From: a virus
Length of the DNA stretch: 49,373 bases
IMG/VR virus record: IMGVR_UViG_3300032213_002060
Location: 1-49,373 of that record
Strand: one strand, 5' to 3'
In this document: positions 314 to 30,293 of the stretch, piece by piece
Layout: every line of letters begins with the position of its first letter
How positions within the stretch are numbered: position 1 is the first letter of the stretch
The notes under the pieces: model-generated
Database searches by the model: none
What the model was told of the DNA's origin: nothing
The model's input: only the letters and a program-made list of their open reading frames with translations
Position numbers and translations under genes: made by a program

Positions 314-874
314 TTATCTTAAAATTGTTATGTGTCCTCGATCTGAGTATCTAGCATCATTGTATTTGTCGCCAAACCAAACTACCCAATTGTAAATGCC
401 ATCTTGAACTACTGAGCCGTTATAAGTGCCATCCCAACGTTCCGTAACATCCCAAGATTCCCATACCGTTTCTCCCCAACGATTGTATACTAACAAATGA
501 AAATCATATGGATCAAAGCCTGAGGTAAACACCGGCCCCCACGTTTGATTGTATTCATCTCCATCTGGAGTAAATGAGTTTGGAATGTAATAAATTAATT
601 GTTCACATTCTTTAACCGTTACGGTATATGTTACTGGTTCACTTGGACAATCTAATGACCAATGTGTAGCTGTGATCACATATACGCCAGTATCACTCCA
701 CGTTAATCCAATTGGATTGCCATAATGATATTCTCCATCAACTTCCCATTCAGTCTCGCCTGGTAAATTTGCTTCTGCAGAATAAAAATATGTTTGCGAT
801 TGTCCGTTACATAACGTTACAAGCTGTTGTGCCGCAACGTTAAATGACATCAATATAAATAATAACGTTTTCAT
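314..874 (-). CDS. Secreted protein with T9SS type B (gliding-motility-associated) C-terminal domain
   Basis: A 186-residue protein with a short Sec signal peptide (MKTLLFILMSFNVAAQ, cleavage before Q) and an Ig/PKD-like middle. Its C-terminal 95 residues match the Bacteroidota CHU_C / gliding-motility-associated domain: IPNSFTPDGDEYN, then VYNRWGETVWES, WDGTYNGSVVQDGIYNW and a final ITILR. In bacteria this domain directs proteins across the outer membrane through the type IX secretion system. The start codon overlaps the stop of the preceding gene (TAATG), so the two are probably translationally coupled. It is last in a run of three small exported proteins. Presence in a phage suggests export by the infected host or a domain captured for a virion protein. 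The family assignment is firm; the role is not known. Confidence 0.85.
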   Translation of the reverse strand: MKTLLFILMSFNVAAQQLVTLCNGQSQTYFYSAEANLPGETEWEVDGEYHYGNPIGLTWSDTGVYVITATHWSLDCPSEPVTYTVTVKECEQLIYYIPNSFTPDGDEYNQTWGPVFTSGFDPYDFHLLVYNRWGETVWESWDVTERWDGTYNGSVVQDGIYNWVVWFGDKYNDARYSDRGHITILR

Positions 875-1437
875 TAGTTGTGTGATATCGGTGATAAGGT
901 TGGAGTTGGATTAACTGTTACTGAAGTGGTAGCGGTGAATGTACATCCTCCCTGTGTTACTGTATATGTTAAAGGCCATGTTCCCGCTCCTGCCGTTACG
1001 GGACAAAATGTATTGCCTACAACACCCGTTCCGGTTAATACGCCTCCTGCAGGAGAGGTTGTTACTGCTACACACGCATCTGTGCTACAAAATGGACCTA
1101 ATGCTGTGATGCTAGGAACAATCTGCAAAATGAATACGTTGAGGTTCGATGCTGGCGAATTACAACCCGAACCATTTGATGCTACTACACTTACGGCATT
1201 TGGTATTAGGCCAGGAGCTGCTGCAGACCAATTGACTCCAATCTGGTTTGTTCCTTGTCCCGATGTAATTACTCCTGGAGCGGCTACGGTCCATGTATAA
1301 GTATTACCTGGAGTGTTGGTTACTGAATAAATAGATCCAGGAGTTTGATAGCAAACTGTATCCGGATTAGTAGTTGTTAACTGTGTATACGCGCTTGTAC
1401 AAGCAAATAAACTCAATGATAATAATAGTTTCTTCAT
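874..1437 (-). CDS. Secreted PKD/Ig-like protein with C-terminal ISHN
   Basis: A 187-residue protein with a clear Sec signal peptide (MKKLLLSLSLFACTSAYTQ). The mature part is rich in Thr, Ser, Gly, Val and Pro and has the spacing of PKD or Ig-like repeats seen in Bacteroidota surface proteins (for example NTYTWTVAAP, PLTYTVTQGGCTFTATT). Six or more cysteines could form disulfides. It ends SPISHN, and the preceding gene ends AISHN. Its stop overlaps the start of the type B sorting-domain gene. It lacks a recognisable T9SS domain of its own and may act with its downstream neighbour as a surface complex. The base composition looks more GC-rich than the surrounding genes. Confidence 0.7.
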   Translation of the reverse strand: MKKLLLSLSLFACTSAYTQLTTTNPDTVCYQTPGSIYSVTNTPGNTYTWTVAAPGVITSGQGTNQIGVNWSAAAPGLIPNAVSVVASNGSGCNSPASNLNVFILQIVPSITALGPFCSTDACVAVTTSPAGGVLTGTGVVGNTFCPVTAGAGTWPLTYTVTQGGCTFTATTSVTVNPTPTLSPISHN

Positions 1438-1441
1438 AACA

Positions 1442-2023
1442 TTAATTGTGTGATATAGCTCCTATACCAGGTAGCTGTGGGTTAATAGTTCCGTTAAATA
1501 CTTGAAATGGTGTAGCTCCGTCGCAGCTTGTACTGCCCCAACTTCCCCAAAGTCCATCCGAGCCAGGAGTTACTGCAACGAGTAAATTTTGTGGTGTGCA
1601 TCCTTGTGCCACCGTAAGTGTTACACAAAAAGTCCATACACACGCGCCAGAGTCACCAAAGTCATCTGCTGTTTGTCCATCCAAGTCTAAGTCAAAGAAG
1701 TAACCAGGTCCTACAAGTCCTACCGGAGTATTTGCAGCTAACGTCCATAGCCACTGACCGCCTGACGCATTACCTCCACAGTTAGCAGGTGGTATTGCTG
1801 GCTGCACACTTGCCCAACCAGGTCCTAATGTTAAATCAAATCCTTCTATCCAATTCGATCCAGCTTGGGAATATCCATTCATTGTAAAACACATTGTTAC
1901 GACCTGGCCAGGAAGATATTGATTACCTACCGGAGGTGGTGTTAATGTGAATGATTGTGTGCCATTGCATTGCGAATATGCATTGCTACATAATAATATG
2001 AATAATATCAATAACTGTTTCAT
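1442..2023 (-). CDS. Secreted hypothetical protein with C-terminal ISHN
   Basis: A 193-residue protein with a Sec signal peptide (MKQLLILFILLCSNAYSQ). The mature domain has a beta-sandwich look, with CFTMNGY, GPGYFFDLDLDGQTADDFG and several paired cysteines, and ends GAISHN. No family is recognised with certainty; it resembles extracellular modules found in secreted Bacteroidota proteins. It is first in the three-gene exported set. The motif copy at 2027-2035 ends only three bases before the ATG, so the message may be leaderless. The gap to the next gene is four bases. Confidence 0.65.
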   Translation of the reverse strand: MKQLLILFILLCSNAYSQCNGTQSFTLTPPPVGNQYLPGQVVTMCFTMNGYSQAGSNWIEGFDLTLGPGWASVQPAIPPANCGGNASGGQWLWTLAANTPVGLVGPGYFFDLDLDGQTADDFGDSGACVWTFCVTLTVAQGCTPQNLLVAVTPGSDGLWGSWGSTSCDGATPFQVFNGTINPQLPGIGAISHN

Positions 2024-2038: not shown

Positions 2039-2458
2039 TTACTTAGATTCTACTAGTTTAGCAACTCGATTACGAGCCTTTTCCCCTAACGGAATAGGAT
2101 GTCCTTCTTCATCAATGTGCACAAATTTGATATGAGTCTTGAGTACAACGACCTGATTGCCAGTATATACATTGTGTGCTCGTGCCTCTATATATAAGTT
2201 GATAGAAGAATTGCCTATTGCTTGTGGACGTCCATATATTTTTAAGAGTTGTCCTTCCCGAGCCGGTCTTTCGAAGTTGCATTTGTCAATTGATACAGTA
2301 ACCATTCTAGGCGTATCACACAATTGCATTGCATAACCTGCTGCTGAAATATCCAGCCAACTTAAAAGTGCTCCACCAAAGAGATTACCATGGAAACCTA
2401 GGTCAGATTTTTTAATTAAATAGGATGATATCAACTCCATCATTTTCTCCATAACCAT
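2039..2458 (-). CDS. Hotdog-fold acyl-CoA thioesterase (YciA-like)
   Basis: A protein of up to 139 residues with the acyl-CoA hydrolase signature: HGNLFGGALLSWLDISAAGYA (helix and catalytic Asp region), then VTVSIDKCNFERPAREGQLL and VVVLKTHIKFVHID. The family hydrolyses acyl-CoA thioesters in the cytoplasm. The most upstream ATG is at 2458, but an ATG at 2443 overlaps the stop of the homing endonuclease gene (AAAATGATGG) and has GGAG in front, so that is the likelier start. A thioesterase is unusual cargo for a phage; it may redirect host CoA esters or membrane lipid turnover. Family confident, role inferred. Confidence 0.85.
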   Translation of the reverse strand: MVMEKMMELISSYLIKKSDLGFHGNLFGGALLSWLDISAAGYAMQLCDTPRMVTVSIDKCNFERPAREGQLLKIYGRPQAIGNSSINLYIEARAHNVYTGNQVVVLKTHIKFVHIDEEGHPIPLGEKARNRVAKLVESK

Positions 2459-3156
2459 TTATATGATTTTTCTTGTTTAATTCTAGTAATTGATTCTGCG
2501 CCTATGCCATATATCGCCGTAATCTGTTTATATGGGACATTATCGTTAATCATTTTTTTAATTTGTAATACAACTTCATCTGAATACTTTGCATTAAGTT
2601 TACCTAATTTATCTTTTGTAGTATCTGATTTAGGTTTACCAGTTAATGCATTTGATATTTTTTTATAACGACCAGTTAATTCTGATTTATCGATCGTTCT
2701 ATAATAGTTTAATAAACTTTGTCGACGATTTTCAATTTCGGTTAGCGATTGTTTTCTTCCTTTTAGTTTAGCTCCAGTTTTCTGTCCTATTTCTTTTGGT
2801 CGCTTTCTACCCGTAAGTGTGTTTCTTATTTTATTTCTGGTTTGTTCAGATGATTTAGATTGTATAGCATTTTCTGACCAACCTCCATATCCGCCTTTAG
2901 TTAAATTATAAAACATTATATCATTAATAGCATCATACTTTTCTATTAAATATTCTTCATACATTCTGGCTTCATGCTCAGTATCAAATTCTTTAAGTAT
3001 TGTTTTTTGAAAATTTTCTTTTCCGTATTTTTTAATTGCACTAGATATTATTTTTCCGGATCCTAAATAAGATTTAGATATGTCCGGATGTTTCGAACAA
3101 TATCCAATGTATTTTTGGTTTGTTAGTAAATTACGTGTTTCGTATACATACGGCAT
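2440..3156 (-). CDS. GIY-YIG homing endonuclease with NUMOD3-type repeats
   Basis: A 238-residue protein. The N-terminal GIY-YIG nuclease core shows YVYETRNLLTNQKYIGYC, followed by the conserved Glu region (EARMYEEYLIEKYDA) and FYNLTKGGYGG. The middle has NUMOD3-like DNA-binding segments (TRNKIRNTLTGRKRP, GAKLKGRKQS, ISNALTGKPKS) and the end has a helix-turn-helix (VPYKQITAIYGIGAESITRIKQ). This is a free-standing mobile endonuclease of the phage seg type. It carries its own ATATTTATA box and AAAGGA ribosome site. It sits directly beside a decayed gene on one side and overlaps the thioesterase on the other, consistent with recent insertion. Confidence 0.9.
   Translation of the reverse strand: MPYVYETRNLLTNQKYIGYCSKHPDISKSYLGSGKIISSAIKKYGKENFQKTILKEFDTEHEARMYEEYLIEKYDAINDIMFYNLTKGGYGGWSENAIQSKSSEQTRNKIRNTLTGRKRPKEIGQKTGAKLKGRKQSLTEIENRRQSLLNYYRTIDKSELTGRYKKISNALTGKPKSDTTKDKLGKLNAKYSDEVVLQIKKMINDNVPYKQITAIYGIGAESITRIKQEKSYKWLWRK

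Positions 3157-6055: not shown

Positions 6056-6056
<1 letters not shown>
5847..6056 (-). CDS. Hypothetical protein (69 aa)
   Basis: A 69-residue protein starting MEIIKHEDKAYGVLRQVPMH. Its ATG overlaps the last base of the groEL stop codon, so it is in the groEL transcript and probably translated by re-initiation. The composition is mixed and aromatic-rich near the end (IQTDTHFMFCELIPDVDFEI). It is not a GroES: it lacks the mobile loop and is too short. Function unknown. Confidence 0.6.
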
Positions 6057-7675
<1,619 letters not shown>

Positions 7676-7741: not shown

Positions 7742-8302
7742 TTATTTTTTTTTGTTTTTAGGTTTTCCTAACGTAGCTTTAGATATTTTTAATTTTGTTT
7801 CGGTACTACGTTTTTGACCTGTATTCTTCTGTACACGATTTTGTATAACATCTGCAGTCTGTTTACGTCCTTTTAGTTTTTCAGAAACTCCGGGGCGTTT
7901 ACATTTCAGTTTTTCTCGTGTAGCATCACTATGATGATATACGCCTTTTAATCCTTTGTTCCATGGAATTCGGCCTTTGTGCGATTCTGATAATTTTTGT
8001 CTCGTTTCGCGTGCCGGATTATACAATCCTTCTCCGCCAGCTGTTAAATTAACTAATGTCCCAGTACCTAAATCACGTCGGCCGTAATGTATAATTAATT
8101 CTTGTTCACGTTTACACGCATCTTCCCATAATAAACCATCTTCAATTATATCAACTCTATATTCGGTACTATTTACTATATTTTTCCAATGCTTGTTCCG
8201 AGACTGCAAACTATTCGCTCGTTTATATAAATCATCAGATCCAATTCCAATGTAAAATACTTCATTGGTATCAAGTCTAATATGTTTATATAAGTAAGCC
8301 AT
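7742..8302 (-). CDS. GIY-YIG homing endonuclease with NUMOD3-type repeats
   Basis: A 186-residue protein with an N-terminal GIY-YIG fold (YLYKHIRLDTNEVFYIGIG, then EQELIIHYGRRDLGTG and LVNLTAGGEG). It is followed by repeated DNA-binding segments of NUMOD3 type (TRQKLSESHKGRIPWNKGLKG, REKLKCKRPG, SEKLKGRKQT, KISKATLGKPKNKKK). It is a free-standing homing endonuclease inserted between the VWA gene and groEL. It differs in sequence from the copy at 2440-3156, so the two are separate acquisitions or old relatives. Its own promoter-like box is six bases upstream. Confidence 0.9.
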   Translation of the reverse strand: MAYLYKHIRLDTNEVFYIGIGSDDLYKRANSLQSRNKHWKNIVNSTEYRVDIIEDGLLWEDACKREQELIIHYGRRDLGTGTLVNLTAGGEGLYNPARETRQKLSESHKGRIPWNKGLKGVYHHSDATREKLKCKRPGVSEKLKGRKQTADVIQNRVQKNTGQKRSTETKLKISKATLGKPKNKKK

Positions 8303-8320: not shown

Positions 8321-10396
8321 TCATTTTGAAATTTCCAAGAATTTTGAGTTCATTGATTTAGCGATATCTGTCATATCGACTGGATTGATAAATGATGCGT
8401 CCGATCCGTACATTGTTCTAAAATTGTTTTGTGTACTTTCCGATAAATATGATTCGTATATAAAATAACTAATTATCGTAATACCCAAATCTCGAAATCC
8501 ATTAACAACTTTTTTAGTAAACCGAACACCATCATAACGATTAGCGACACCGGTTACACTTGTTGGCTCACCATCTGAATAATTAATAAAGATACACTCA
8601 TCTCCTTTAGCATCCTTTTTGATATCTTGTTCGATACTTTTAAATGCTATTCCCTCAGGTGTACATCCAAATGTATCTAGATACTTAAAGTATGTTTTAA
8701 TTTTATTCATTTTATCGTGTGCCGAATCATATGCATATATCGTAACAGCTTTTTCGGTATTACTTCCTACATTTTCAGTGCCACGAACTGATATCTGTAC
8801 TCGTATACCTGTCGTCATTGATGCTGCTTGTGCAATTGCTACTGCTGACGTAATTGCATTGCGAAACTTTTTTCCTGACATAGATCCGGATGCATCAATT
8901 GAAATATGAATAAAATAGTTTTTATAACGATCCGTTACGATGCGTTGAAATACATTAACATTTTGATATCCTAATTGCGATATCAATCTACGATCTATTT
9001 TCCCTGCAGTAAGCCGGGTTGTTTTTAAACTGCGATCCGAATTTCTTAGTTGCAACTTAGCACCTAAACGTTTTCCTAATAAGATGCCTCGGTTAACTGC
9101 ATTATCTGTGTTTACGATTTCTCTAGCTGAATACGTTGGATTAACGGGATCAAGTACTTTTTGCCCCGATGCGTATTCATAAGAATATGACGCAAACAAT
9201 GATGGTATACTTTGAATAATACTCGGAGTTATTTTTTTGATAACAACCGTAGTTACAGGGCATCCAACGCCTCCGTCATCGGTGTATACCATTCTAGTTT
9301 CTGTACCCGATTCTTTAATTGCTTCAACAATCTTAGCATCTGACTTTGACAAACGACCTGTCTTTTTAACGTTATCTCTTAAGAAATCTCGTTGTGCTTC
9401 AATAGCCTTTTCTAGTTTATCTTGTTCTTTTTTAGAAAGTGATGTCTGATCTGATGATTCTTGTGCATCTGATGGATCAAAATCCATATCATTGTCATCA
9501 GAATACATATCACTATCATCAGTATCATTATCTAAATCTGCAAAAGATCCGTTACCTTGTCCCGGCGTTGATCCTGATTCACTTGTGTCATTAGATGAAT
9601 CTGATACATTAGCTTCTACTTCCGCTTCATTAACTGCTGTCTTTATTACTTTATAAACTTCACACGCCACATCCAATGCATCTAAAGTTGTCTTAAGACG
9701 ATTGATGTTTCTTAAATCAATAAGATTCCATATGGTTCGAAGCTGTGTTAATGAATCTAATTTTCTATTTGAATTAGTAAAGTTAATGATATGAAACAAA
9801 TAACAATCAAAATCTTCATTGGTTTTTTCTCCAACTAACAATGCCTTATCGATAACTTTGTCATTGAAATACTTGTTATACATTGCTTCATAATACATAC
9901 GGTATCCCGGAGCATTAGTATAAATTTTATAATCGATTCTACGATCCTCAATCCAATTTAATAAATCTTTGATTATCCTAAAGTCTGATTCTTTCATATC
10001 CATATCCGGATCTAAACCTCGCATACGAACGTGATTACCAAATTTTGAATTGCTTAATCGAGTTGCACCTTCGAACAAAGAAAAATCTGTGAATGCAATA
10101 TGCGACCCTTCATGCAATGCTAATCCTACAGCAGAATCAAAATTCTTATCTTCTAATTTAGTACCGATGACAACTTTCTTGCCGTCTGTGTAACTAGAAT
10201 CATTGCTTTGAAATACTACGGGAATTTGTTGACCTGTAACAATATTAACGAAGTTACCAATTGCTCTTTGTGCAGCTGCTAACTTTGTATAATCATGTTT
10301 GCTACCGTTACGGAACGATGTATCAAAATCTTCTCGTAACCAAAAGCTAGATGCTTGACGATTTTCATAACCCTTAAAGCCAAAGTCTTTTTTCAT
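8321..10396 (-). CDS. VWA-domain protein with HExxH-like motif (MoxR partner, CobT-like)
   Basis: A 691-residue protein. The N-terminal half has ALHEGSHIAFTD at residues 93-104, a zinc-peptidase-like HEGSH. The middle is an acidic low-complexity linker (Asp, Ser, Asn rich, residues about 265-320). The C-terminal part is a von Willebrand A domain with the MIDAS motif DASGSMSG near residue 500, and later NYSDGEPTS. It lies downstream of a MoxR-type AAA+ ATPase, a pairing typical of metal-insertion or protein-remodelling complexes and also seen in marine T4-like phages, where the genes are often labelled cobS and cobT. It has its own promoter-like box after a terminator. Whether the HEGSH motif is catalytic is unknown. 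Confidence 0.8.
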   Translation of the reverse strand: MKKDFGFKGYENRQASSFWLREDFDTSFRNGSKHDYTKLAAAQRAIGNFVNIVTGQQIPVVFQSNDSSYTDGKKVVIGTKLEDKNFDSAVGLALHEGSHIAFTDFSLFEGATRLSNSKFGNHVRMRGLDPDMDMKESDFRIIKDLLNWIEDRRIDYKIYTNAPGYRMYYEAMYNKYFNDKVIDKALLVGEKTNEDFDCYLFHIINFTNSNRKLDSLTQLRTIWNLIDLRNINRLKTTLDALDVACEVYKVIKTAVNEAEVEANVSDSSNDTSESGSTPGQGNGSFADLDNDTDDSDMYSDDNDMDFDPSDAQESSDQTSLSKKEQDKLEKAIEAQRDFLRDNVKKTGRLSKSDAKIVEAIKESGTETRMVYTDDGGVGCPVTTVVIKKITPSIIQSIPSLFASYSYEYASGQKVLDPVNPTYSAREIVNTDNAVNRGILLGKRLGAKLQLRNSDRSLKTTRLTAGKIDRRLISQLGYQNVNVFQRIVTDRYKNYFIHISIDASGSMSGKKFRNAITSAVAIAQAASMTTGIRVQISVRGTENVGSNTEKAVTIYAYDSAHDKMNKIKTYFKYLDTFGCTPEGIAFKSIEQDIKKDAKGDECIFINYSDGEPTSVTGVANRYDGVRFTKKVVNGFRDLGITIISYFIYESYLSESTQNNFRTMYGSDASFINPVDMTDIAKSMNSKFLEISK

Positions 10397-10540: not shown

Positions 10541-11680
10541 TTAAAATGGAATTGATTCTGATGAAGTATCATTTCCTGTATTGAAAATATCTTGTTCGGC
10601 GGTTGCCATATGTTTCTGAATAATTTGTTTTACAAATGTTCTTTCTGAATCCGCTCCTCCCGATGCATCGAAGAAAGGCAATATTGCTACTTCAGATGCA
10701 TCGGAAAGCGTAAATCCATCTGCTAACAATTCACATACGCGCACCGTCATACGAGTGGATATCATGGTAGTTAGCTTACCGGTTTCAGATCTCCATTCTT
10801 TACGGGTAGAATCTGCAATGTCTGCTACTGCATGAATCAAATCTGCAGATACTTTGTTGCTATAACGCTTTGCTAACAATGCTTCTTCTCGTTCTAAAGT
10901 CAAAATGTCTACTTCGATAATTTCAAAACGATCCATCAAGGCACGGTCTAATACTCTCGTTGATGTATATTCGGTACCTATGTTTGCAGTTGCAATAAAT
11001 GATACTCCTGATGCTACTTGGATTGTAGGCGAATCAATATCTTCATCTAATCTTAAATAGCGTTGACCTTCATCTAATACTGTCATTAAGATATTCCATG
11101 CCTCGGGATGCGCACGAGATAATTCATCTAAAAGAATAACTGCATTCTCCGTTTGAATTGCTTTCACAAATGAAGATTCATCAAAGGTAGTCTCTCCGGA
11201 TTTGAAATGCGTGTTACCAATAAGAGTGGCTCTAGGATCTTGAGTTGCACCTAGGTTAAAATAAAAGAAAGGACGATCCGTTGCTTGAGGAAGTGCCTTT
11301 GCTGCTTGAGTCTTACCGCAACCTGCAGGACCAACCATCATGATGTTCTTGCCCCGAACTGCTGACCGTACAAGATACTTCCATTTGATGTCGGACATCT
11401 CTAAATCATTTGGTTTGATGTTAGCGGCATTTGTGATAAGAGCCATTGCAGCATCCATCTCCGCAGGTTGAACTTGAGTTTCAATTATTGTTCGTTCGGC
11501 GGGAATTTCTGATAAGTCTATTTGACGAGCTCGGCCCGTGTCTTCATCAAATGCTAATGCTTTGCCATTCTTAACCGCAGCTTTAATCATTACATCTCGG
11601 AACAATGCACTAATGTCTAATCCTGTTCCTACTTCAAATACCGTGTTATCGGTAATTGTACCAAAAATTTTCTTTTTCAT
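10541..11680 (-). CDS. MoxR-family AAA+ ATPase (CobS-like)
   Basis: A 379-residue ATPase. The Walker A motif GPAGCGKT is at residues 117-124, Walker B VILLDE at 181-186, and sensor and arginine-finger regions follow (IATANIGTEYTSTRVLDRALMDRFE). This organisation is that of MoxR/CobS proteins, which form hexamers and remodel client proteins together with a VWA partner. The partner gene is next in the transcript direction. It is preceded by an ATATTTATA box and followed by a terminator, so it may be monocistronic. The N-terminal 100 residues are not recognised. Confidence 0.88.
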   Translation of the reverse strand: MKKKIFGTITDNTVFEVGTGLDISALFRDVMIKAAVKNGKALAFDEDTGRARQIDLSEIPAERTIIETQVQPAEMDAAMALITNAANIKPNDLEMSDIKWKYLVRSAVRGKNIMMVGPAGCGKTQAAKALPQATDRPFFYFNLGATQDPRATLIGNTHFKSGETTFDESSFVKAIQTENAVILLDELSRAHPEAWNILMTVLDEGQRYLRLDEDIDSPTIQVASGVSFIATANIGTEYTSTRVLDRALMDRFEIIEVDILTLEREEALLAKRYSNKVSADLIHAVADIADSTRKEWRSETGKLTTMISTRMTVRVCELLADGFTLSDASEVAILPFFDASGGADSERTFVKQIIQKHMATAEQDIFNTGNDTSSESIPF

Positions 11681-11730: not shown

Positions 11731-12831
11731 TTATTTGATAACTTTTTTCATGGTACCATCATCATAAATTTCAATATAAATGCCAGTACTGGAAAAATTT
11801 TCTGGATATACTTCTTGGCCTCGAAGGTTTATTATTTTTACAATTTTACGTGTTTTATCACTATTGTCAATTGCTATTGGACCATATTCCGTAATAATTC
11901 CATCATTATCATGTTGAAATAATTTATAGTAATTAATACATGGATCATATGTTTTGTCTGTTTCGGTGTAATCTATTAATATCGTGCTGTTGCCTGCTGC
12001 CGGAGTAATTGTGATAATGTCAGCATCGGTAAAGTTACCTGATTGGCTTCTATGTAATGTGTAATGAGACGAATTATGTTCTGAGGCAGTTTGCCATTTT
12101 AATACGTTAACACCATCTACATTTACACCATCAAAATAAGTTAGCTCAACCGGGAGTGGAGCTGGTGTTACATCTAGCAACTCTATATTGTCAATCCACC
12201 ACTCTTCGCCTGCTGAGTTGACTCTACAAAATATATCAATAGCAACTTGTGTGAAGCCTGTTTGTAGATTTAACATAACCATCGATGGAGCTGTAGTCGT
12301 AATACCTGCAGGTACTTGATATATATCTCCGGCTGGTGCTGCTGAGTTTGTGAAAGTGCCATTCGCGGTATGAAATATAGTTCCTGTGCTAGCATATGTC
12401 CATTGTGCATTGCTATTTCCTGTTATACGTAGCTGCGATATAAAAGTGGTACCACCATTTGTTGATACCTGTATTTCAATTAAGTCTGCCACATCCACTC
12501 CCCGAGTCGTTGCGGTAGTAGCTGAAAACGTACGAGATGATAATCGGAATTTCAATTGATATTGTTTTGCCGGATCTAATCCAGTTACATTAGGTAAAGA
12601 ATACCAGTCTTGCTCATTAGCAGATGTTCCAGTACCAGTACCGTATAACACGGCACTAAGTGTGGGCGTAACAGATGCATTAGTAAACCATCCAGCAGTA
12701 AGTGCAGGAGTCCACCATCCGGCTGTTGCATACCCGGCAGAGAAGGTTTCCATATAGTCATATTGAATAACTGTCTGAGGTTTGCTGCATAATGATATCA
12801 TTACTGCTAACAATAGTAATATTCTATTCAT
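11731..12831 (-). CDS. Secreted protein with T9SS type A C-terminal sorting domain
   Basis: The frame is open from 12909, but the credible start is the ATG at 12831, giving 366 residues with a Sec signal peptide (MNRILLLLAVMISLCSKPQ). The first two thirds form a beta-rich jelly-roll-like region (DYMETFSAGYATAGWW, later EEWWIDNIELLDVTPAPLPV) as in secreted Bacteroidota enzymes and adhesins. The last 75 residues match the type A Por-secretion domain: KIINLRGQEV, then GIYIEIYDDGTMKKVIK. The sequence LPVELTYFDG followed by VLKWQTASEHNSSHYTLHRS is the common linker before that domain. The product is predicted to cross the outer membrane through the host T9SS and be anchored or released. No catalytic domain is recognised. 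Confidence 0.85.
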   Translation of the reverse strand: MNRILLLLAVMISLCSKPQTVIQYDYMETFSAGYATAGWWTPALTAGWFTNASVTPTLSAVLYGTGTGTSANEQDWYSLPNVTGLDPAKQYQLKFRLSSRTFSATTATTRGVDVADLIEIQVSTNGGTTFISQLRITGNSNAQWTYASTGTIFHTANGTFTNSAAPAGDIYQVPAGITTTAPSMVMLNLQTGFTQVAIDIFCRVNSAGEEWWIDNIELLDVTPAPLPVELTYFDGVNVDGVNVLKWQTASEHNSSHYTLHRSQSGNFTDADIITITPAAGNSTILIDYTETDKTYDPCINYYKLFQHDNDGIITEYGPIAIDNSDKTRKIVKIINLRGQEVYPENFSSTGIYIEIYDDGTMKKVIK

Positions 12832-12976
12832 AGTTTGTTTTTTGGTGTTTTTGTTTACGAGTATATACTTTTTTAGATTGTTGGGCTCTTTGCACGAACC
12901 GGCCATCAAAATAACCTTGTTCGAGTTGAGACTTTCTGCTAGCTCCTAAATTAATCTTTAGAATTTGAGTCTTCAT
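12824..12976 (-). CDS. Small basic hypothetical protein (50 aa)
   Basis: A strongly basic reading frame, MKTQILKINLGASRKSQLEQ onward, ending RKQKHQKTNYE. The open frame extends to an ATG at 13009, but the Met at 12976 reduces overlap with the upstream gene and gives a more natural N-terminus. Its stop overlaps the start of the type A secreted protein by eight bases. Highly charged and probably nucleic-acid associated or disordered; function unknown. Confidence 0.45.
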   Translation of the reverse strand: MKTQILKINLGASRKSQLEQGYFDGRFVQRAQQSKKVYTRKQKHQKTNYE

Positions 12977-13133
12977 AACGTGACATGGTTTGTTGGAATG
13001 CAACTTCATATGCTCCAGCTAAATTATGTGGATGATGTCGTTGTATCTGTTTAACTGTGTCAAACACTTCTTCATGTATGCCATATGCATACGCTTCCAT
13101 CATGATTTCTTCGATTCGATCCGCCATTTCCAT
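12951..13133 (-). CDS. Small acidic hypothetical protein (60 aa)
   Basis: A 60-residue protein starting MEMADRIEEIMMEAYAYGIH, helical by composition, with histidines in the middle (IQRHHPHNLAGAYEVAF). AGGAAT lies just upstream of the ATG. Similar short helical proteins are common in T4-like phages of marine bacteria, but no function is known. It is followed by the basic 50-residue frame with a 26-base overlap. Confidence 0.55.
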   Translation of the reverse strand: MEMADRIEEIMMEAYAYGIHEEVFDTVKQIQRHHPHNLAGAYEVAFQQTMSRYEDSNSKD

Positions 13134-13169
13134 ATTCCTATTATAATAATTAAAAGTTAAAATTCCAAA

Positions 13170-13610
13170 TTACCAGTTTCTACAAGACCAATATCTTGCT
13201 TTCCATCTAGGACCTGGAGTTTCACAACGGTGTCTAGCTCTAAATGAACGTCTACGTGCGGGATTGCTTTTGCGTATTCTCATATTAGGATCTCCGAAGT
13301 TAACCTTTACAACGTTGCCTTTATCATTTTTAACGTAGACTTTAAACTTCTTTACATCACCGCGCATTGGTTTACCTAATTTAACCTTGCGTCCTCTGTA
13401 TTCTGATTCATTAAGTCCTGGCTGGATTACATCGATATAGTCTTCTTCTGTTACAGAACGTTTGATGTATTCAATTAAACATTCTGAACAATATCCTTCT
13501 GCTTCATTAATTGGAACGCAATTAGGAACTTTACGTCCACCTTTCTTTTTCATTCCAATCATTTCATATCCAGACCAACATGGATCGGATTCATCAATAT
13601 ACATTTTCAT
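13170..13610 (-). CDS. Conserved T4-like phage protein with Cys-rich ends
   Basis: A 146-residue protein. The N-terminus has DPCWSGYEMIGMKKKGGRKV, then CVPI and YCSECLIEYI. The C-terminus is strongly basic with FRARHRCETPGPRWKARYWS, then C and a terminal W. I recall this layout from hypothetical proteins of marine T4-like phages; its function is not established. The central segment VKLGKPMRGDVKKFKVYVKN with VVKVNFGDPNMRI is compatible with a small beta domain. The cysteines at both ends could bind zinc. It overlaps the stop of the metallopeptidase-like gene by one base and is likely co-expressed with the virion-associated genes upstream. Confidence 0.7.
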   Translation of the reverse strand: MKMYIDESDPCWSGYEMIGMKKKGGRKVPNCVPINEAEGYCSECLIEYIKRSVTEEDYIDVIQPGLNESEYRGRKVKLGKPMRGDVKKFKVYVKNDKGNVVKVNFGDPNMRIRKSNPARRRSFRARHRCETPGPRWKARYWSCRNW

Positions 13611-14359
13611 TACAACTCCTGTCGTATTCCTAATTTAGGGAGATATGTTCTCCAAGTATTTATTATTTGAGTTTTATCATCTGCAGTGATTGTGTTGTTA
13701 GAAACCCATATGTTTAAGTATTCATCAACAACTTTTGCAAATGGCTGTTTACTTTTTTTGGCTTTAAAATATAAACCCTGAATCATTGCCGGGGTTTCTT
13801 TAGGTAACGTAAAATATCTAGATGGAGGAAGTTGTCCGCTATTTATTTTTTTACGCATTGCTTGGTCGGAAGGAATATATTTACTATCAATTGTATTCCA
13901 TCCTGACTGTGTTGTATGTTCAATTTCATGTCGAAGAACATCACGAAGCTGCATTGCTACTTCGTTTAATATTTTAGGATAATCTGCCGGATCAATTTCG
14001 AATCTGATTTCAATTAACGGCATATCTTCAGCTTGACGTTTAGTTTCATTGTAAGCATCTCCTCCGAATCGAAAATCATCAAATCCTTCAATCCATTGAA
14101 CTTTAAGTTGCAAATAAAAATCTAATGGTATCTGAGTGTTTTCTATTTCCTCAAAATAAATGTGTCGGAATTCGTTGTCATTATCAATATTGGGTACTTG
14201 GTCAGCTCGTTTAAAATATATTTTCTGTCCTGAAAATTCTCCGTTTGGATTCGATACTGACGAATAACTGTCTTTAATAATTGTTAATAGCTTTCTAGAT
14301 AGTTCGGTAACTATACTATCATATCGACCTTCAATTATCAATGTTTTTAAGGATATCAT
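13610..14359 (-). CDS. Putative virion metallopeptidase-like protein with capsid-targeting-like N-terminus
   Basis: A 249-residue protein beginning MISLKTLIIEGRYDS. The first ten residues, ending I-I-E, resemble the short N-terminal peptide that T4 removes from internal head proteins (prohead protease cuts after L/I-x-E). An HExxH motif lies in LRDVLRHEIEHTTQSGWN, with acidic residues further on, as in small metallopeptidases. It could be packaged in the head and injected. The promoter-like box ends four bases before the ATG. The catalytic assignment rests on the motif alone. Confidence 0.6.
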   Translation of the reverse strand: MISLKTLIIEGRYDSIVTELSRKLLTIIKDSYSSVSNPNGEFSGQKIYFKRADQVPNIDNDNEFRHIYFEEIENTQIPLDFYLQLKVQWIEGFDDFRFGGDAYNETKRQAEDMPLIEIRFEIDPADYPKILNEVAMQLRDVLRHEIEHTTQSGWNTIDSKYIPSDQAMRKKINSGQLPPSRYFTLPKETPAMIQGLYFKAKKSKQPFAKVVDEYLNIWVSNNTITADDKTQIINTWRTYLPKLGIRQEL

Positions 14360-25923: not shown

Positions 25924-26690
25924 AGCATTTCTTTTAACTTATTATACGTTTCTTCTATTCCGCGTTTTAATCCAATAAAATTTACATCTAAAGGATGATA
26001 TTGACCTACATAGCCTGATATATCATTTCCTACGGATATCGGAACTTCATATGTATCTAAAGTATTAATAATTTTAGCAATATTATAAAGATATAATTTC
26101 ATTCCAGAATATATACAATCTAAAGTTTTTGGTAAATTATTATTATTAATATAATATTCTATTAAAGTAACCAAATCTTTCATATAAATAAAATCCATTA
26201 ATTTATTTTCGTATATTTGGATCGTTTCTTTGTTAATATAACGTTTAATATTTGATTTAATAAATCTGGTATCTAATTCATTTTCATCGAACACTCCAAA
26301 TATTCTTAAATTATAAAAATTTGGTTTATCGTTAATCGATTGACTAATAATAAATTTGCTTAAACCGTACGGAGTCGAATGAGATAGTTCAGCACCAGAT
26401 CCTAAATTTATAAATTTATTATAATTAGTTTGGTGATTTAAAAGATTATAGTATAATTTTATATTTTGATCTATAATTGAACTGTCTTCTAGTTTGTTTC
26501 TGTGACCGCCAACGATTGCAGTATGAATTACTACATCAAAATATTTTCCAGAAAACCAATTATTTGTAGCTATAGAATCGGTTAAATCGAAATCATCTCT
26601 TCCAATGCAAGTAACTTCATATTTAGAATGTAAATATGAATACAAACTTCGTCCTACGTAACCATTTTTACCTGTAATTAATATTTTCAT
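25920..26690 (-). CDS. NAD-dependent epimerase/dehydratase-family protein
   Basis: A 256-residue extended short-chain dehydrogenase. The Rossmann start is ILITGKNGYVGRSLYSYL, followed by VVIHTAIVGG, the catalytic YGLSKFIIS (Y-x3-K) and DFIYMKDLVTLIEYY. It acts on a nucleotide sugar as epimerase, reductase or dehydratase. It is shorter than RmlB or GalE and very AT-rich. The Y-x-x-x-K motif is intact. It is in the operon between the aldolase and the 299-residue gene with four-base overlaps, and may finish the sugar made by the enzymes upstream. Confidence 0.8.
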   Translation of the reverse strand: MKILITGKNGYVGRSLYSYLHSKYEVTCIGRDDFDLTDSIATNNWFSGKYFDVVIHTAIVGGHRNKLEDSSIIDQNIKLYYNLLNHQTNYNKFINLGSGAELSHSTPYGLSKFIISQSINDKPNFYNLRIFGVFDENELDTRFIKSNIKRYINKETIQIYENKLMDFIYMKDLVTLIEYYINNNNLPKTLDCIYSGMKLYLYNIAKIINTLDTYEVPISVGNDISGYVGQYHPLDVNFIGLKRGIEETYNKLKEML

Positions 26691-27685
26691 TTATTCTTCA
26701 GCTTTTGTGCTACTTCTAAAATAAGATCTTCTTGCCCCGCAACTAATTTTCTATTTCCTAACTCAAAAATAAGAGATGAATATTCAATTCCATATAATTT
26801 AGATGCTTTAATTATCGGCTTTTCAAATCCGGAAAATAATTTTGTTAATCCAGTTAAAACATTAATGGGGGTGGATATAGGGTGTGTTGGAACTAAATAA
26901 TCCATTACGCGATCCGCTTCTTTAATCGTTTCTTCAAAACTAATTCCGGTAGAAAAATTACTACGTTCAAACACAGGTAATAATAATTCTAAAGGTGCAT
27001 TACCAGCACCAGCCCCAAATCCTCGAATACATGCATCAATCAATTCAGCGCCATTTTCAGCAGCTACTAATGAATTAGCTACAGCACACCCTAAATTATT
27101 ATGTGCATGGAACCCAACTTTAATGTTTAATTGCGATTTTAACAAACTAATACGTTCTTTTACGTCTGCAGGTAAATAAGTACCCGTTGAATCCATAATG
27201 ATAACAGCTTCTGCGCCGTATTCTTCCATAATCTTAGCTTGTTCTGCTAACTCGGCCGGTGTAATTAAAGCAGACATCATTAATACCCCATATACCGTTT
27301 TTCCGGTCTTTGCTAAATATTCTATGTGGGATTTTGATAAAGTTGCTTCAGTACAATGTGTTGCGACACGAAATACATCGACTCCATAATCGATAGCTAA
27401 CATTGCGTCATCAATAGTAGATAAGCCTGGAATCGTATGAACTCCTAATTTTGATGATTTAAGATTTTTTCTAGCAATAGTTAACATTTCTTTGTCAGTA
27501 TTAGGAGATTTTCCTATCAATAACGATGATGCTGCTAAACCATTACCATGCCCTACTTCTACAACAGGTATTCCAGCTTTATTTGCAAATTGACAATATC
27601 TTTCGATGCTGTCTAAACTAATAGTATGCTTAACGCTATGATTTCCGTCTCTGAGACTAGAATCTGTAATGATTATATTTTTCAT
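26687..27685 (-). CDS. 4-hydroxy-2-oxovalerate aldolase-like (HMGL family)
   Basis: A 332-residue TIM-barrel protein of the DmpG/MhpE group. It has the metal and catalytic motif ITDSSLRDGNHSV (Arg12, Asp13), VEVGHGNGL and the metal-binding GFHAHNNLG (His193, His195). In the classical pathway it splits 4-hydroxy-2-oxovalerate into pyruvate and acetaldehyde, channelled to the acylating dehydrogenase encoded immediately upstream (two-base gap). In a sugar cluster the pair may instead build a side chain. It ends overlapping the epimerase-like gene by four bases. Confidence 0.88.
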   Translation of the reverse strand: MKNIIITDSSLRDGNHSVKHTISLDSIERYCQFANKAGIPVVEVGHGNGLAASSLLIGKSPNTDKEMLTIARKNLKSSKLGVHTIPGLSTIDDAMLAIDYGVDVFRVATHCTEATLSKSHIEYLAKTGKTVYGVLMMSALITPAELAEQAKIMEEYGAEAVIIMDSTGTYLPADVKERISLLKSQLNIKVGFHAHNNLGCAVANSLVAAENGAELIDACIRGFGAGAGNAPLELLLPVFERSNFSTGISFEETIKEADRVMDYLVPTHPISTPINVLTGLTKLFSGFEKPIIKASKLYGIEYSSLIFELGNRKLVAGQEDLILEVAQKLKNK

Positions 27686-27687
27686 AG

Positions 27688-28545
27688 TTAATGTTTTAAT
27701 TTTTCTGTAATCTTAATTGCTGCACAGTTAATAATATCTAAATTACCGGCATATTCTGGCAAATAATCTCCAGTTCCTTTTACCCTAATACTTAATACAA
27801 CTACTCCGTTTTCATTCAGTGTAGGTGACAATACTAGTTCGTAATATGGTATATAAGTTTTTAATTCTTCTATTTTTTCTGCAATCTTTTCTGTTAAATT
27901 ATTGAAATCAATTTCTTTAGTTTTAATAAAAATAGTAGTTTGCATATCAACGCATGGCTCTGCAGGATTCAAATTGAGAATAACTTTAGTATTTTTACAT
28001 CCGGTAAACTTAGTTATTGCATTTTTTGTAGTTTTAATGTAATTATCAACATTGATTCTCGTAGCCATTCCGGCACTTTTAGATGCAATTTGAGATACAA
28101 TTTCTACATATTCTAATCCTTTACAATGTTTTGATATTAAATGTAACATTGGCATCGATGCTTGTCCGCCACACGTAATCATGTTAACATTATCATCTGT
28201 TAATATAATATCTCCATTAACATCGGGCACGCACATATCCCCAACTTTTGCTGGCGTTAAATCAATTACTTTAATTCCTTGTTCTTTAAAGATTTTAGCA
28301 TGTTCTTTAGCATCTGTAGCATTAGTACAATCATATACCACTTCGCAACAATTAGGATTATTTTTGAAATAATCAATTCCTTGATCTGATATTTTAATTC
28401 CTTTTGATTTAGCAATACTCATCGTGTCAGAATCCAATCTTCTTCCTACGAATGCTACTACATCAATAAAGTCAGTTTTAATTGACTTTAACATGAGATC
28501 GGTACCGATATTACCTGTACCTAAAATTGCTACTTTTATTTTCAT
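27688..28545 (-). CDS. Acetaldehyde dehydrogenase (acylating), DmpF/MhpF-like
   Basis: A 285-residue protein with an N-terminal Rossmann motif (VAILGTGNIGTDLM) and the family's catalytic cysteine in MITCGGQASMPML (Cys125). EIVSQIASKSAGMATRINVD follows in the dimer domain. The family oxidises acetaldehyde to acetyl-CoA with NAD and forms a complex with the aldolase that follows. Length is near the usual 300. It overlaps the TPP enzyme gene by four bases. The catalytic Cys is present, so it is probably active. Confidence 0.88.
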   Translation of the reverse strand: MKIKVAILGTGNIGTDLMLKSIKTDFIDVVAFVGRRLDSDTMSIAKSKGIKISDQGIDYFKNNPNCCEVVYDCTNATDAKEHAKIFKEQGIKVIDLTPAKVGDMCVPDVNGDIILTDDNVNMITCGGQASMPMLHLISKHCKGLEYVEIVSQIASKSAGMATRINVDNYIKTTKNAITKFTGCKNTKVILNLNPAEPCVDMQTTIFIKTKEIDFNNLTEKIAEKIEELKTYIPYYELVLSPTLNENGVVVLSIRVKGTGDYLPEYAGNLDIINCAAIKITEKLKH

Positions 28546-30293
28546 CTCGTTATACTATTACTTCGTTCATTAATTCCGGAAATCATCGCCGCTTTAATAT
28601 CTTCTAAAAGCAACAATGGCGACATTTCTTCTAGTAATCCAGCTTGAATTGTATTGTCATTATTTTTGATACCTTTTACTTTAGGTATAAATTCTTGATT
28701 CGGATCCATAAATACTTCTAAAATACTTTGATTGGTAGCTGCTAAAAAATCATCAACGGTATCTAATGTATAATAATCATATCCAAATGCATCTGCTACT
28801 TTTTTATATTCTGGAAGTTCTACGCCTGTTGATTTATCAACGCAAGTTTTCGTTCCACCAAATAACATATTTTGCGTATGCTTGATCATTAAGTAGCCAT
28901 CATTGTTGAATATAACAACTTTTACTGGTAGATTGTGAGTCTTTATTGTTTGAAGTTCTTGTAAATTCATCATCATACCTCCATCACAATTCAAACATAA
29001 TACTGGCTTATTACCAAATCCAGCGCCAACCGCCGCGGCAAGACCATATCCCATTTCGCCTAAACCTAATGATGTAAACATCTTTTGATTTGGTTTGATA
29101 TTAAATCCATAAAAGCCACTTAACAAAGCAGTTCCCATGTCCGTAACAATTGTATAGTTATCAGGTACTTTGTTTGAGAACCAATCTATAAATGTATATG
29201 AATTAGTAGGATCAACTAAATGTTCAGTCATTACTCTAGGATATTTGTTTCGAATGTTATCGCAATATAATTTCCAATCCGTAGTGTCTACTTTAATTAA
29301 ATCAACTGAAATTAAATCATATAAGATGTTTCCGATATCTTCATTAATTGGTAATCCATCAAATTTATTTGTTTCGGTTGGGTCTATATCAATATGAACT
29401 ATTTTTGCATTAGGTGCAAAATCTTTTCTAGAATATCCTGTTTGTAATAGAGATAATCTACTTCCCATTACAATTAATAAATCGCAATTTTGTACTATAA
29501 AATTGGATGAACGTTGTCCTTGAACACCTGAACGGCCGTAGTTATTCGAATGAGTTTCTTCAAGTAAATCTACTGCTGACCAAGTTAATATTGTGGGTAA
29601 ATTATGTTGCTCAATAAATTGTTTAAATAATTTTTCTGATTGAGATAATTTAACTCCATGTCCTCCAATTATAACTGGTCTTTTACTTTGGTTAAGTAAA
29701 TCTATTAAGTCTAATGTTTTTGGACTTAACATTGGAGTGTTTAATTTTTTAAATGGGGTGATAGGTTGTTCGTCAACCATTTGTCCTTGAATATCAAATG
29801 GTATTTCTAAAAATACAGGGCCTGGTCTATTGATTTGTGTTGTTTCAAATGCTTTTTCAAATGTTTCGTATACATTTTCTTTAGTGATTCGAACAGACAT
29901 TTTTGTATGTTTTGAAAATGTATCTACTGAATCATATCCTTGGATACCGTACATTCTCATATCTGAATATTCATTAATATAATATGATTGTTCTTGTCCT
30001 GATATAATAATTCCAGGAATCGAATCTGCCCAATTGGATAAAATACCAGTAAATGAATTCGAAGATCCTCCGCCGGCTGTAACTAATGCAACTGCTAATT
30101 TGCCGGTGGATCTATAATATGCCCCCATTGCCATAACTGCAGCTTGTTCGTGATGTACGGCAATTAATTTAATATTAGATTTGTTATTTATGGAATTGTA
30201 TATATGAGAATTAGCAGATCCAATAATACCAAATACAACTTCGATATTATTCTTTTCTAAAAATTCTGATATAACATCACTAACTTTTACCAT
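28542..30293 (-). CDS. Thiamine-diphosphate enzyme, acetolactate synthase-like (YerE-like?)
   Basis: A 583-residue ThDP enzyme of the acetolactate synthase superfamily. It has the catalytic Glu49 in VHHEQAAVMAMGAYYRSTG, a central domain with VIIGGHGVKLSQ, and a C-terminal ThDP/Mg site (CLNCDGGMMMNLQELQTIK, then VVIFNNDGYLMI). Members decarboxylate pyruvate and transfer the two-carbon unit. In some O-antigen clusters the relative YerE adds it to a 4-keto sugar to make yersiniose. That is a possible role here because an RfbH-type dehydrase is in the same operon. Acetolactate production is the alternative. Confidence 0.85.
   Translation of the reverse strand: MVKVSDVISEFLEKNNIEVVFGIIGSANSHIYNSINNKSNIKLIAVHHEQAAVMAMGAYYRSTGKLAVALVTAGGGSSNSFTGILSNWADSIPGIIISGQEQSYYINEYSDMRMYGIQGYDSVDTFSKHTKMSVRITKENVYETFEKAFETTQINRPGPVFLEIPFDIQGQMVDEQPITPFKKLNTPMLSPKTLDLIDLLNQSKRPVIIGGHGVKLSQSEKLFKQFIEQHNLPTILTWSAVDLLEETHSNNYGRSGVQGQRSSNFIVQNCDLLIVMGSRLSLLQTGYSRKDFAPNAKIVHIDIDPTETNKFDGLPINEDIGNILYDLISVDLIKVDTTDWKLYCDNIRNKYPRVMTEHLVDPTNSYTFIDWFSNKVPDNYTIVTDMGTALLSGFYGFNIKPNQKMFTSLGLGEMGYGLAAAVGAGFGNKPVLCLNCDGGMMMNLQELQTIKTHNLPVKVVIFNNDGYLMIKHTQNMLFGGTKTCVDKSTGVELPEYKKVADAFGYDYYTLDTVDDFLAATNQSILEVFMDPNQEFIPKVKGIKNNDNTIQAGLLEEMSPLLLLEDIKAAMISGINERSNSITR

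Follow-up and report, generated by a model that had tools for sequence, protein, structure and literature searches.

Cargo of the type IX secretion system (T9SS) that carry a type B C-terminal domain (CTD) are surface adhesins, known or predicted as such (PMC12618676, PMC9143113). They need a PorP/SprF shuttle, and the CTD sets their destination; a linked porP/sprF gene is common and not required, orphan cargo being known (PMC12618676). Secretion of SprB requires five conserved motifs within its last 100 residues. The SprB-type adhesins of Flavobacterium johnsoniae, which work with PorP/SprF (PMC12618676, PMC9143113), share with the phage family described here a signal-peptide-type N-terminus and a full TIGR04131/CHU_C C-terminus, and fused members of the family also have SprB repeats and PKD-like domains. 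Unlike the SprB systems, the family is encoded by phages, and none of those tested has an sprF gene; the version analyzed here consists of three coupled polypeptides, two of which end in I-x-H-N.

Phage genes with T9SS sorting domains have been reported in Cryophage (PMC7468147) and in crAss-like cluster 2 (PMC6949934), where use of, or a relation to, the host system was suggested; the statement of a preliminary description of this locus that no described phage uses the T9SS thus has to be withdrawn. The Cryophage cargo are type A, carried on enzymes and a PA14 protein, and superinfection exclusion was also proposed for them (PMC7468147), whereas the phages examined here have type B adhesin modules, in several lineages and partly inside the tail operon. 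Three BFVD entries from uncultured Caudovirales phage (A0A6J5NJX2, A0A6J5NML0, A0A6J5LD72) resemble the cassette, as a 187-aa ‘gliding motility-associated C-terminal domain’ protein, a 185-aa PKD-like protein and SprB-repeat proteins, under database or automated names only. The phage-family profile also matches residues 5800–5886 of the Aureispira protein GhpA (PDB 9flp and others; E 1.6e-36), which differs in being a 5898-aa bacterial surface hook. In the open-access literature we found no experiment with a phage protein secreted by the T9SS, no relevant paper on an I-x-H-N tag, and no description of a type B adhesin family in tail operons or of a split coupled set. Phage T9SS cargo are therefore already known as such; the tail-operon type B family, the split set and the tag are the parts not found described.

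A cassette of three predicted secreted proteins

The window, an IMG/VR virus record of 49,373 bases, encodes on its minus strand ORF1 (1442..2023, 193 aa), ORF2 (874..1437, 187 aa) and ORF3 (314..874, 186 aa), in that order. ORF1 has a putative signal peptide, a beta-rich domain and the C-terminal tag GAISHN (1445..1462, minus strand); ORF2 combines a putative signal peptide, a PKD_6 domain (PF19408, 45.2 bits) and the tag SPISHN (877..894, minus strand); and ORF3, the last of the three, has a putative signal peptide, one PKD/Ig-like domain and a CHU_C type B sorting domain. ORF1 and ORF2 are separated by 4 nt, and the stop of ORF2 overlaps the start of ORF3 in TAATG (872–876). The three genes are translation-coupled.

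The preliminary description had singled out ORF3 as carrying a complete type B CTD behind a Sec signal peptide; this single-gene observation is confirmed, the two preceding ORFs of the same cassette having been overlooked. The profile search it proposed gave a significant match to TIGR04131 (39.7 bits, E 4.1e-10, cut-off 35), in which residues 97–186 cover positions 3–85 of 85, and the same residues (317..586, minus strand) match PF13585 CHU_C (49.9 bits, E 3.5e-13, cut-off 27). The domain is complete, lies above both curated cut-offs and runs to the extreme C-terminus; its blocks IPNxFTPDG, NRWG, WDGTY and GxY are kept across 44 phage sequences. The N-terminus of ORF3, MKTLLFILMSFNVAAQQ, looks like a Sec signal peptide, and ORF1 and ORF2 each have a signal-peptide-like N-terminus of their own, as judged by eye and by a heuristic. 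Since every ORF has its own signal-peptide-like start, a frameshift or readthrough polyprotein was ruled out. An AF2 model of ORF3 (mean pLDDT 85.4) is all-beta; a fold search with it adds little, because it returned only generic tandem Ig-like matches (TM ≤0.49).

The T4-type replication genes claimed for this genome are present as a clamp loader (phrog_168, 2.5e-85) and a sliding clamp (phrog_223, 1.7e-7). They are the only T4-type genes found: profile searches of the window gave no Gp23 and no sheath gene, the sheath HMM PF04984 being too insensitive for several of these phages. As ORF3 lies close to the contig end, an assembly chimera of host and phage DNA, named in the preliminary description as a possible refutation, was considered. 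An independent sibling contig, IMGVR_UViG_3300034093_003652 (G001), has the identical gene order, with the three secreted genes at 83–98% identity; phage genes follow downstream in loci L193 and L195, and dozens of phage contigs carry the ORF3 family. Because the sibling repeats the gene order, a chimera is excluded in practice, and its probability is negligible.

A candidate for further secreted cargo is encoded at 11731..12909 (minus strand, 392 aa). Its short type-A-like C-terminus was recognized by eye only and lies below the family thresholds, the profile search giving no match to TIGR04183/Por_Secre_tail. A relative of it, F47, directly follows the fused CTD gene in locus L198.

Fused relatives, tail operons and origin

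In the 634-kb phage LR745206 a single 732-aa protein unites the counterparts of ORF2 (45% identity) and ORF3 (50%). A match to the ORF1 domain (37% over 174 aa) lies within a 1670-aa SprB-like protein of LR756502 (642 kb), which has 13 SprB repeats and a CHU_C domain. LR745206 contains four CHU_C domains and LR756502 three, with further type A domains in both. Both belong to the huge phages of PMC7162821; the main text of that paper predicts Bacteroidetes as the hosts in which genomes above 634 kb replicate, and type IX secretion goes unmentioned there. At the same place in these two phages, beside very large genes, small type A CTD proteins are encoded (LR745206 298054–298653, LR756502 325583–326143), kept by descent.

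The preliminary description had also suggested looking for the domain in other phages, and related copies were indeed found. With E allowed up to 1, a CHU_C consensus search matched only 3 of 50,697 phage records; in IMG/VR, an alignment of the CTD retrieved 400 loci and one of the last 186 residues 97. In many related phages, on contigs of up to 436 kb, the relatives are fused into one SprB/PKD/CHU_C protein. Nearly all of the 74 distinct proteins follow one plan of 650–820 aa, with a signal peptide, an N-terminal QYCPxLGPDQxLPCG... and a terminal CHU_C domain; in L198, the member tested, SprB repeats and PKD_6 lie in between. The 436-kb contig G019 has one fused and one split copy. In the same contig the Gp23 frame (267424–268926) is interrupted by one TAG and one TAA, as it is by two TAA codons in G009 (12249–13727), through an intron, recoding or error.

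The position of the gene bears on its role. Forty-one of the 74 distinct copies sit between the tail-tube gene, which is immediately upstream, and the baseplate-hub gene, on the same strand, and the tube gene is just upstream in 14 of 59 split cassettes. Sheath and tube genes adjoin the adhesin gene in the carrier contigs, where capsid and tail hallmarks are found; Gp23 exceeded its cut-off in 19 of 36 records of the fused set plus controls and in 11 of 26 of the split set. Other copies share the neighborhood of the window, with GroEL, thymidylate synthase and VWA-type genes. The preliminary description had offered either display on the host surface or a virion role. According to the latter, the protein would be part of the contractile tail or decorate it, and would bind the host surface through its Ig-like and CHU_C domains; the linkage to tail genes and the frequency of Ig-like domains in virion proteins speak for it. 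However, the signal-peptide-like N-termini on all parts would take the proteins out of the cytoplasm, where tails assemble, the isolate Flavobacterium phage immuto has the sheath–tube–hub–tape measure operon without the adhesin gene, and the window lineage, LR745206 and others carry the gene far from tail genes. Since immuto has the same tail genes, the adhesin gene is an accessory of the tail operon, and a virion role seems distinctly improbable. The best reading of a putative Sec signal together with a complete type B CTD, retained in a clade specific to phages, is display at the host surface.

That clade emerged from a FastTree phylogeny of 79 phage and 80 bacterial sequences: 74 phage sequences, including those of the window and LR745206, group together (SH-like support 96) and are nested within bacterial homologues, most of them from Flavobacteriales. 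Further CTDs from the huge phages fall outside the clade. With the bacterial rows limited to the best 80 of the matches listed, more bacteria may join it under wider sampling. In Flavobacteriales the N-terminal domain of the fused proteins is common (287 of 399 genomes, best matches at 55–60% identity), an indication that the family has a Flavobacteriales-like origin and host range. The split CTDs form a single clade (59 rows, support 91), and the adhesin was therefore probably divided into separate chains once.

Split cassettes and the I-x-H-N tag

Searching with ORF2 retrieved 99 loci. The 80 that were kept represent 59 distinct sets; the loci were picked by ORF2, and counts for this protein are conditional on the ORF2 family. 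The split set is missing from all of the 50,697 phage records. Throughout the kept loci ORF2 stands alone, as a protein of about 187 aa with the ending PI.H[ND]. The product of its upstream neighbor usually has the ending I.HN, and downstream, where the contig continues, there almost always follows a gene for a CHU_C protein, likewise of about 187 aa. The overlap of ORF2 with ORF3 is 1 nt in 37 of 54 cassettes.

The end of ORF2 is strongly conserved. P at −5, I at −4 and H at −2 are present in all 59 distinct sets and N at −1 in 58, while position −3 is variable; the sets keep this tag at pairwise ORF2 identities as low as 44%. The upstream gene product has I at −4 and H at −2 in 55 of 59 sets each, and N at −1 in 56. 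Synonymous codons at the tag vary, so the constraint acts on the protein, and a DNA-level signal was ruled out. Among 2126 distinct viral ORFs of these loci, 120 end in [IVL]xHN against 0.44 expected from residue frequencies, an expectation that ignores relatedness among ORFs; 117 of the 120 have signal-peptide-like starts. It is shared by secreted phage proteins that are unrelated in other respects, among them beta-propeller-like, reelin/PKD-like and glycine-rich ones (folds assigned by eye).

Outside the split sets, the fused-form phages LR745206, LR756502 and G002 lack the tag, save one weak, chance-like LLHD end, and so do 739 ORFs in bacterial loci. In 399 Flavobacteriales genomes the pattern of tag plus start was at control level (5 vs 5). 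Homologues of ORF2 listed for 200 Crocinitomicaceae genomes are embedded in longer open frames, mostly of 400–4000 aa and a few of about 220–350 aa, and none of the matches listed reaches ORF2 residues 186–187. Among the sequences sampled, the tag is confined to phages. This distribution bears on the idea that I-x-H-N is a distinct signal for sorting or processing that the host machinery recognizes, as a short C-terminal motif on several unrelated secreted proteins might be; a host signal should, however, occur on host proteins, and its absence from the bacterial-locus ORFs and the control-level count in Flavobacteriales leave this explanation rather unlikely. An intein-like reading of the terminal HN was discarded, since there is nothing beyond the stop and the fold of the domains is Ig-like.

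Comparison with the fused form suggests another role. The ORF2 tail TVNPTPTLSPISHN aligns without gaps and in register to the fused linker TVYPQPEVLAITPN, and mature ORF3 begins right behind the position of the aligned linker strand. In an AF2 model of L198 (pTM 0.38, LR745206 rows left out of the input) the linker VLAIT forms a strand at residues 635–639. The alignment with this strand suggests that the tag provides in trans what the fused protein contains in cis. This would resemble donor-strand assembly in fimbriae of type 1, also proposed for Mfa1 of P. gingivalis (PMC4789730), where a strand of one subunit completes the Ig-like fold of the next; unlike in those systems, the proposed donor is a C-terminal tag, and no chaperone, usher or gingipain step is seen. 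We tentatively propose, as a possibility short of probable, that I-x-H-N-COOH is a modular docking tag by which CTD-less phage proteins assemble on a CHU_C partner and cross the host T9SS as one adhesin, a split, trans-acting and phage-specific kind of cargo. If so, the tag would be the first sign of multi-chain T9SS cargo and a simple handle to find and test such systems.

Proposed export and use at the infected-cell surface

No PorP/SprF gene (PF11751) was found in five phage records, three of which are fragments, and a phage-encoded SprF shuttle was accordingly set aside; five Crocinitomicaceae genomes searched as a control have 15–17 copies each. A host shuttle is thus the likely partner. 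From the domains, the cassette, the conserved tag and its restriction to phages among those sampled, and the missing phage shuttle, all read from sequence, we infer export, docking, display and function: the three coupled genes (2023–314, minus strand) of this Bacteroidota virus would encode a phage-made type B T9SS surface adhesin, a reading to which we incline with modest confidence.

The products of ORF1, ORF2 and ORF3 would enter the periplasm through the host Sec system. The CHU_C signal of ORF3 would then direct passage through the host T9SS translocon, with retention at the outer membrane by a PorP/SprF-like host shuttle, as for SprB. ORF1 and ORF2, which have no CTD, may dock head to tail on the next subunit by their I-x-H-N tags, the ORF2 tail providing the linker strand that fused homologues have ahead of the ORF3 Ig domain, and the docked parts could reach the surface as a single adhesin. 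There the adhesin would alter the infected cell, by masking receptors (superinfection exclusion) or by changing adhesion.

Its use is probably one of these two. Lambda Lom and N15/phi80 Cor are outer-membrane or superinfection proteins whose genes lie among tail genes; they are neither homologous to the cassette nor T9SS cargo. As for Lom and Cor-type proteins, superinfection exclusion fits the linkage to tail genes. A change of adhesion or motility is its main rival, ahead of virion decoration. The surface protein would then serve host-like tasks, such as attachment, gliding, or colony or prey contact of the infected cell, in keeping with the SprB repeats of the fused relatives, with the grappling-hook protein GhpA as best solved relative, and with the other T9SS cargo of huge phages, including an S8 protease with a type A CTD in G002. 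Yet the gain for a dying cell is less obvious and the tail-gene linkage suggests a tie to adsorption, so that we regard host-like tasks as unlikely, if worth keeping in view. If superinfection exclusion or changed adhesion is borne out, Bacteroidota phages would widely remodel the infected-cell surface via the host gliding and adhesin export route; the T9SS would become part of phage biology, adhesin genes in tail operons would be explained, and a possible basis of superinfection exclusion would be at hand in a phylum with few such systems known.

Several neighboring features were also recorded. In G002 (locus L031, 65628–72545) five secreted proteins are encoded in a run behind the Gp23 gene, one being a subtilase that combines SprB repeats with a T9SS domain of type A. 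In the window, T4 late promoters upstream of the cassette were rejected, TATAAATA occurring at chance (17 seen vs 14.4 expected). An element of the TATTTATA type recurs just upstream of window genes, e.g., at intergenic starts within 8321–10396 and 10541–11680; 14 of its 17 matches lie on the plus strand, the coding strand there, and its total count is at chance. A full-length GroEL gene (6056–7672), near thymidylate synthase, is kept in sibling contigs, while two homing-endonuclease-like ORFs (2440–3156 and 7742–8302, by eye) have no match in the sibling G001. At 26687–30293, within a run of glycan and glycosyltransferase genes, the window encodes 4-hydroxy-2-oxovalerate aldolase (TIGR03217, 333 bits), acetaldehyde dehydrogenase (TIGR03215, 326 bits) and an acetolactate-synthase-like enzyme, which are unusual in a phage.
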